DNA of 47,053 bases from Anaerolineae bacterium (GTDB lineage Bacteria > Chloroflexota > Anaerolineae > Anaerolineales > Villigracilaceae): the NCBI GenBank assembly GCA_030123675.1, contig JASJYH010000011.1, positions 1 to 47,053 of the forward strand, read 5' to 3'. A model generated the notes under the pieces. That model ran no database searches, was not told where the DNA came from, and saw only the letters and a program-made list of their open reading frames with translations. Shown piece by piece: positions 1 through 2,565 of the stretch. Every line of letters starts with the position of its first letter. Position 1 is the first letter of the stretch. The translations under genes and the position numbers were made by a program.

Positions 1-101
1 AGAGCCCTATTATCTACGAGTGTAAGGGTTATTATACTCAGTCCTTATATGCTCATATTATCTCTCTCCCCCAGTAGTGTCAAGTGGAAAATTAAGAAAT
101 A

Positions 102-2195
102 TTATCTTATAAGCTCTTTGAGGCGTTGCCAAAGGGATTTTGTTACCCGAGGAATATCTTCTTTCATTTCTTCTAGTTCTTTTAGAAATTCTTCTTCAAT
201 TTCTGGTCTTCTTTGTTCAACTTGCTGATTTAATATTCCTGATACTTTGTACCAAACATCATTAAATACCTCAAAACTTTTACCAAATGCCTCTTGCACA
301 GCTTGTTTTACACCATTTCCTATCGCAGCCTCTCTAAAATCATGACCGGAAATCATTCCGCCTATTCTAAGCTTGGGTAAATACGCTGATATATCCTTTT
401 TTATAGATGCATAATTGTGGTCACAGTCAATAAATATAAAATCCAAGCTATTATCTTCAAATGTAGCAGCCATTTCCCATGAAATTCCTTGCTTTATTTT
501 AATTACCTTTTCTAAAACTTTATTTGTTTCTAACAAAAGAGCGCGGAATGTACCTGGTAACAATCCACAGTTCACGGGAGGTGTGTATAACTTACCGCTA
601 ATTTCAACAACCAAATTTCCAACAGTAAATTCTGTCAGTTCCTCATTTTCATTGTAAAGGAGCACATCAAAAATTTCATTAGTGCCTATTTTAATATCTT
701 TTTCAATCGCATCTTGGGCGTTTGTATACACTACTCGGTGGGTAGTCTTGTGAAAAAGAAATATGTTACTTGAGTTTACAAAATCTTTCGCAAGGTAAAT
801 ATTAAGCACTGGTTGATTTTCTTTATATTGATAGGATTTTATTTCTGAGGTCAGTCTCCCAAATTTATCAAGTAGCAATTTTATCCTTTGTGGGGTTTTG
901 AATTTGAGTGATATATGATCTAATAGTTTTTCTAAATCTTGTTTTGAAATATCAAAATTAAAATAATGTGCCGAATCTAATAAGCGCGCAACATGTTTAT
1001 TTCGAAGAAAATATCCCTTTTCAGGGCTCCAGTACATAGTTTCGAAAAGTGAGAATTTAGGTGTCTGTTCTGTCACCACCCGAGCCTTTAAAATTGCTTC
1101 CGCGTATTCTTCTTTTATTATCGAGTCCCATACAATACCGCCACCAACACCATATTCTACAATCTGATTTTCAAGATCTATCAATGCTGTTCGGATAGCC
1201 ACATTGAATTTCGCTTTACGATTAGGGCCAATATATCCTATACTGCCTGTATAAATTCTGCGCGGAGTCGTTTCGAGCTCTTTTATTATCCGCATAGTGC
1301 TAACTTTCGGTGCGCCCGTAATCGAAGCAGGTGGAAAAAGTGCAGAGAAAATATCTGATATCGGGGAATTTGTTTTGGCTGTAATGGTAGACGTCATTTG
1401 CCAAAGGGTGAAATATTGTTCCGTCGAAAATAGGTCAGGGACTTGGACAGATCCTACTTTTGCGATCCTGCCGATATCATTGCGGATCATATCAACGATC
1501 ATTACATTTTCCGCTTGGTTTTTTTCCGATTCTTTCAACAATTGAGCTTGCTTCCGATCTTCTGCCGTAGTTCGGCCCCGCTCCCTTGTCCCTTTCATTG
1601 GCCGGCAAGTTAGTGTTTCTCCCTCTAGTTGGAAAAACAATTCAGGGGAGGCGGAACAGATGACGTAGCGTCCGGTATCGATGTAGCCTGCATTCTGGTT
1701 TTGGAACTGAGTAAGATATCGAAAGAAATTCCATGGGTCGCCTTTAAATTCTGCTAGTAACCGCAGAGTGTAATTTACTTGGTAGGTTTGAGCATTGGCA
1801 ATATATGCTTTTATTTTTTTAAGTGCCAATTTGTATGTTTTGCGATCTACTGATAATTCCCAATTTAATTCCTCAAATTGGGAGGTGGGCGACTCGAGTG
1901 AAATAATTTGGGGTTTTTCGTATAGCCCAAACCAGAGCAGAGGAAAATCAGTATCTGTATGGATTTGAAGGGCTGAATCAAAAGCGGAAGCAGCTTCATA
2001 ACTGAGAAATCCGGCTGCGTACCAATTATTTTTATTTACCAATCCTTCAATCTCATTCAACGCCGCGATAATATCCTCGGTTTTGTCCACGCTGATCAAT
2101 TGTTGAGGGTTAGTAAAGTGCAGCCAGTTTTCTTCCTCTTTAAGAAAAATATTATATGGGTCAGATAAATGGTTATATGGTTTAATCTTGTCCAT
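102..2195 (-). CDS. pabBC: Aminodeoxychorismate synthase I / ADC lyase fusion with a methyltransferase-like tail
   Basis: The first ~365 residues are a chorismate-binding PabB domain, which aminates chorismate to 4-amino-4-deoxychorismate for folate synthesis. The PMKGT motif carries Lys201, typical of PabB rather than anthranilate synthase, and DMIRND and ITGAPK motifs follow. Residues ~375-560 are a PabC-like PLP lyase domain with HKTTHR (Lys483 as the likely PLP lysine), a TEFTVGN segment and GLLPGTFR. PabBC fusions are common. What is odd is that PabC loses its usual end (the NSVRG-like motif). From about residue 565 the protein continues as the second half of a class I methyltransferase of the Methyltransf_24 type (IFIDCDHNY near 588, GGMISGHDF near 611), without the SAM-binding glycine motif. 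An acidic helical tail ends it. The start codon lies in a CCATGG shared with the divergent vanZ. The PabB call is firm; whether the lyase works is doubtful. Confidence 0.9.
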   Translation of the reverse strand: MDKIKPYNHLSDPYNIFLKEEENWLHFTNPQQLISVDKTEDIIAALNEIEGLVNKNNWYAAGFLSYEAASAFDSALQIHTDTDFPLLWFGLYEKPQIISLESPTSQFEELNWELSVDRKTYKLALKKIKAYIANAQTYQVNYTLRLLAEFKGDPWNFFRYLTQFQNQNAGYIDTGRYVICSASPELFFQLEGETLTCRPMKGTRERGRTTAEDRKQAQLLKESEKNQAENVMIVDMIRNDIGRIAKVGSVQVPDLFSTEQYFTLWQMTSTITAKTNSPISDIFSALFPPASITGAPKVSTMRIIKELETTPRRIYTGSIGYIGPNRKAKFNVAIRTALIDLENQIVEYGVGGGIVWDSIIKEEYAEAILKARVVTEQTPKFSLFETMYWSPEKGYFLRNKHVARLLDSAHYFNFDISKQDLEKLLDHISLKFKTPQRIKLLLDKFGRLTSEIKSYQYKENQPVLNIYLAKDFVNSSNIFLFHKTTHRVVYTNAQDAIEKDIKIGTNEIFDVLLYNENEELTEFTVGNLVVEISGKLYTPPVNCGLLPGTFRALLLETNKVLEKVIKIKQGISWEMAATFEDNSLDFIFIDCDHNYASIKKDISAYLPKLRIGGMISGHDFREAAIGNGVKQAVQEAFGKSFEVFNDVWYKVSGILNQQVEQRRPEIEEEFLKELEEMKEDIPRVTKSLWQRLKELIR

Positions 2196-2565
2196 GGCAA
2201 AATTTTCTCAATTGATACCCCGTTGGTTACCTGCCTTGATTGTAATGCTAATTATCTTTATATTCTCTTCTCAGCCATCGGATAACATACCAAATTTTGA
2301 TTGGGCTGATAAGATAGTGAAAAAGGGTGGCCATATAATTGGTTATGCAAGTTTGGCCCTCATGTTTTGGCATGCCATTGAAATGCAAAGTACAAAATGG
2401 TGGCTGGCTTGGTTATTGGCTGTCCTATTTGGAATATCGGATGAATTTCACCAATCGTTTGTTCCGGGGCGCCACGCCTCACCAGTTGATGTGATTTTAT
2501 ATGATAACGTTGGAGCATTGCTTGGGATTTTAGTTTGGAATTGGTATCGAAGAAGAAGAGCATGA
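2194..2565 (+). CDS. VanZ-like small membrane protein
   Basis: A 123-residue protein with about four hydrophobic segments (near residues 8-26, 45-60, 67-82 and 100-118). It has the VanZ family signature: a KKGGHIIGYASLAL segment, then DEFHQSFVPGR, then DV...DNVGA. VanZ of enterococci is linked to teicoplanin resistance, but most chromosomal members have no known function, so no resistance is implied. ATG at 2194 is preferred; a TTG two codons upstream (2188) is also open. There is no Shine-Dalgarno sequence. A TGGTTTAAT extended -10-like element at 2178-2186 would start transcription at about the start codon, so the message may be leaderless. It diverges from pabBC with overlapping start codons and converges on scpA. 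Confidence 0.8.
   Translation: MAKFSQLIPRWLPALIVMLIIFIFSSQPSDNIPNFDWADKIVKKGGHIIGYASLALMFWHAIEMQSTKWWLAWLLAVLFGISDEFHQSFVPGRHASPVDVILYDNVGALLGILVWNWYRRRRA

Follow-up and report, generated by a model that had tools for sequence, protein, structure and literature searches.

An apparent PabB-PabC-methyltransferase fusion in an Anaerolineae draft genome is best explained as a chimeric contig end

The open reading frame (ORF) at positions 102–2195 (minus strand) of the window analyzed here, a stretch of 47,053 nucleotides constituting a complete contig (C22) of a draft Anaerolineae genome (2.83 Mb, 204 contigs, 94.4% complete), very probably owes its unusual domain composition to an assembly error, as it runs into a chimeric contig end made from the DNA of two or three organisms. 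The contig contains segments of different taxonomic origin, a pabBC gene of the host family and a locus from the ultra-small Patescibacteria, and three gene fragments follow one another within its last ~500 bases. Contigs that combine reads from different genomes are a documented phenomenon (PMC7881036), to which species with low to intermediate coverage are particularly prone. The initial annotation of this DNA, which described a PabB-PabC protein ending in half a methyltransferase, had listed an assembly error among the possible explanations. This option is now strongly favored, because the contig end includes DNA from another phylum and at least two joins, all within these last ~500 bases; the three-part protein that had been envisaged instead is not supported.

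Pfam analysis bore out the basic layout initially described, with PabB and PabC in one ORF, followed by a Methyltransf_24 domain reduced to its back half, without the SAM-binding front, and with the NSVRG end of PabC missing. The chorismate-binding domain (Chorismate_bind, PF00425) occupied residues 118–370 (5e-78) and was followed, as in PabB-PabC proteins, by a class IV aminotransferase (lyase) domain (Aminotran_4, PF01063) at residues 383–568. The latter matched positions 2–200 of a 223-position profile, such that its end, with the N[SA]xR motif of a complete lyase domain, was absent. Both matches were above their cut-offs, and that to TIGR00553 was marginally so. On the basis of these Pfam and NCBIfam matches and of comparisons with relatives, the fusion gene for aminodeoxychorismate synthase component I and aminodeoxychorismate lyase, devoid of its 3′ end, was assigned to positions 498–2195 (minus strand). 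The Methyltransf_24 domain (PF13578) matched residues 559–620 far above chance (E 2e-10), over profile positions 44–105 of 105, and its SAM-binding front (e.g. E-x-G-x-x-x-G) was therefore lacking. The reading frame is unbroken across its 697 codons, and its stop codon sits 101 bases before the contig end. At its other end, a 125-amino-acid ORF (window 2188–2565), VanZ-like on visual inspection, is oriented divergently from pabBC. With the TTG listed as its start, this ORF overlaps the pabBC start codon region by 8 bases.

The pabBC part is genuine host sequence, with closest relatives displaying 51–62% identity (up to 62% over residues 17–566). PabC had initially been thought to stop just after GLLPGTFR; the loss of its end is real, but the homology reaches about residue 566 (nt ~498), ~15 residues past GTFR, and a profile of the PabC C-terminus matched the window only as far as nt 492. 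The sequence continues in 17 aligned relatives as ..ERVIxxxELxxCxxIFLVNSVRGW.. and then stops, the ends taking the form NSVR, NSIR or NSLR, or the N-A forms NAVR and NALR. All 29 of the family homologues for which ends were read had NSVR, NSIR, NSLR or, in one case, NSVH. The fused form is absent from the relatives: in the 152 family genomes searched, ~75 homologues were found, none with the tail, and their matches ended mainly at query positions 185–191 (residues 565–571). A few looser alignments reached residues 584–612, two of them across a stop codon; in the family genomes G754 and G714, the alignment passed from PabC through a TAA codon to query position 232, which looks like a loose extension of the alignment. 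The only other genome of the same genus that was searched (65% complete) yielded no match. The downstream neighbors of pabBC are not conserved among relatives, and the true continuation could not be traced by synteny.

The search for a second pabC in the host genome that had been suggested initially, performed with the profile of the PabC end, yielded nothing convincing: the second match had an E value of 0.87 and an internal stop. Only one other Aminotran_4 protein was found in this genome, a full-length protein of 332 residues on contig C87, which, judging from its length, would be of the branched-chain aminotransferase type. Most likely, the true host gene encodes an unremarkable PabB-PabC fusion of two domains, with an ..NSVR.. 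end, and the real pabBC is probably intact. The doubt that had been cast on the lyase step of folate synthesis is not supported by this contig.

The first foreign piece (positions 262–525, minus strand) was defined from the Pfam match and alignments as the back half of a Methyltransf_24-type protein. Residues 558–642 matched full-length methyltransferases from IMG/VR contigs (52% identity), an uncultured 735-kb phage (49%) and a patescibacterial genome (L051; 42%); the exact source was not found, the IMG/VR match being the best obtained. All the full-length relatives have a SAM-binding glycine-motif front before the shared region. As this front half is absent from the window ORF, no methyltransferase activity is expected of it. 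The direct abutment of the PabC and methyltransferase domains, with no stop codon between them, would fit an in-frame deletion in the host that fused pabBC to a neighboring methyltransferase gene, the biological option of the initial annotation. No such gene was present downstream of pabBC among the ORFs of the 14 relatives examined, and a deletion joins neighbors from the same genome, whereas the end of the tail, like the non-coding DNA that flanks it, is patescibacterial. The probability of a host deletion is very low, and this explanation can be excluded in practice because nt 44–268 match Patescibacteria, as described below.

The initial annotation did not include a third piece, consisting of residues 643–697 (positions 102–268, minus strand) and the DNA beyond. 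These residues share 76% identity with the last part (L044, 5001–5165) of a 98-amino-acid ORF from a Patescibacteria MAG (JAHJSY010000052.1), and the DNA match to this locus (77%) ran from nt 268 down to nt 44, past the stop codon and into non-coding DNA. For nucleotides 11–45, three other patescibacterial genomes gave matches of 93–96%, lying directly before xerC-like genes. Given this position next to xerC, nt 1–268, which are of foreign origin, read as an uninterrupted segment of a patescibacterial gltX-sORF-xerC locus, with its parts in the order expected: the C-terminal half of a small secreted-type protein followed, at positions 1–101 (minus strand), by intergenic DNA identified by DNA identity as a promoter-like stretch before xerC. 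This piece is cut by the contig end just before the expected xerC start, and there is no return to host sequence before the first base of the contig. The tail and its DNA occur only once in the host genome. No xerC of the patescibacterial type was found there (25% identity for the best match in this genome), and a search of viral contigs for the tail module revealed no relative.

The small protein belongs to a conserved patescibacterial family encoded between gltX and xerC, which is a side result of this analysis and is covered by no Pfam family. It bears on the apparent fusion only in having supplied the false tail. Members of this family, observed at L044 (4872–5168) and in L049–L078, are mostly ~100–180 residues long, with a signal-peptide-like start and the C-terminal tail ..EVExRKPxIEEEFxKExxEMKEExPKxxKSLWxRFKELIK. 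Of the 24 loci examined, 23 had gltX next to the family gene, and 19 a gene for a xerC-like recombinase. The window has the conserved C-terminal tail and the promoter region following it, with the methyltransferase piece in the place of the N-terminal signal peptide. The stretch TGAGTATAATAACCCTTACACTC (window 11–45) is near-identical upstream of patescibacterial xerC-like genes in L086 (1501–1530), L089 (1501–1526) and L091 (1501–1528), and may represent a conserved site with a promoter or regulatory role.

The origin of the methyltransferase piece bears on a variant of the chimera, in which methyltransferase and small-ORF tail truly belong to one patescibacterial gene, only the join to pabC being artificial. 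This variant is a sub-case of the main explanation, and the probability given to it overlaps with that of the latter. The existence of related methyltransferases in Patescibacteria (L051) is consistent with such a gene, but each of the matches in 290 patescibacterial genomes was either to the methyltransferase or to the tail, never to both, and the small ORF normally begins with a signal peptide. We consider the variant unlikely.

The single join initially placed at about 480–515 was close to the first of the joins identified here, but it is not the only one. The methyltransferase alignment starts at residue 558, and residues 558–567 can be aligned with both PabC and the methyltransferase; the first join therefore lies near nt 490–525 (minus strand). 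The second, at nt 255–270 (minus strand), was located from the DNA match to L044, which begins at nt 268, and from alignments, and falls in a stretch similar in both partners. The partners resemble each other at both joins (..VLEKVIKI.. at the first; ..VFNDVWYK.. versus ..IFENVWHK.. at the second). Every outer piece is truncated, the SAM-binding front being absent from the methyltransferase and the signal peptide from the patescibacterial protein. According to the mechanism that we propose, the assembler would have linked the host pabBC to part of a methyltransferase gene, and that part in turn to the patescibacterial gltX–small ORF–xerC locus, each join probably being mediated by short stretches common to the partners; a chimeric DNA template is a less likely source of the joins. 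The frame may have been kept open by chance, or by joins at similar codons.

Three observations count against a chimera: the open frame, for which the probability of being maintained across two joins by chance alone is about one in nine or lower; the GC content, which is uninformative (35% in the foreign piece versus 31.5% in the adjoining pabC stretch); and the failure to find the 3′ end of pabC on another contig. The continuous 697-codon frame and the failure to find an intact pabC end elsewhere in the host genome would also fit a real horizontal transfer, in which patescibacterial and methyltransferase DNA entered the living host and was inserted into, or recombined with, the pabBC 3′ end, so that the lyase was cut short and extended by foreign sequence. 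For this to occur, two illegitimate joins would be needed in a 250-base stretch, each interrupting a gene in its middle, and the only PabC found would lose its conserved end; the foreign DNA never reverts to host sequence before the contig end, and the arrangement was absent from all the other genomes searched. We regard horizontal transfer as very unlikely. A recent transfer from a patescibacterium, perhaps one living on the host cell, that cut the sole pabC of the host, replaced its end and left the host dependent on outside p-aminobenzoate is still less probable. We infer that the pieces were joined in assembly and not in a living cell.

Treating this contig end as chimeric prevents a three-domain folate enzyme from being wrongly reported as new, and the folate pathway from being wrongly reported as broken. 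It also illustrates a simple check, in which unusual fusions at contig ends are tested piece by piece against other phyla. The window ORF resembles the PabB-PabC fusions of the host family in having Chorismate_bind and Aminotran_4 domains in one chain and in the same order, at the level of identity given above, but differs from them in the replacement of the last ~30 residues (..NSVR..) by foreign sequence. It shares with the SAM methyltransferases of the Methyltransf_24 family the back half FIDxDHxY..DI..LPKL..GGMISGHDF, but not the glycine-motif front half. With the patescibacterial gltX/xerC small protein, it has in common the last ~55 residues and the non-coding DNA that follows, whereas the signal peptide and middle part are absent. 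The closest parallel for the whole is provided by chimeric metagenome contigs, in which, as appears to be the case here, pieces from different organisms have been put together where a contig of a fragmented genome ends.
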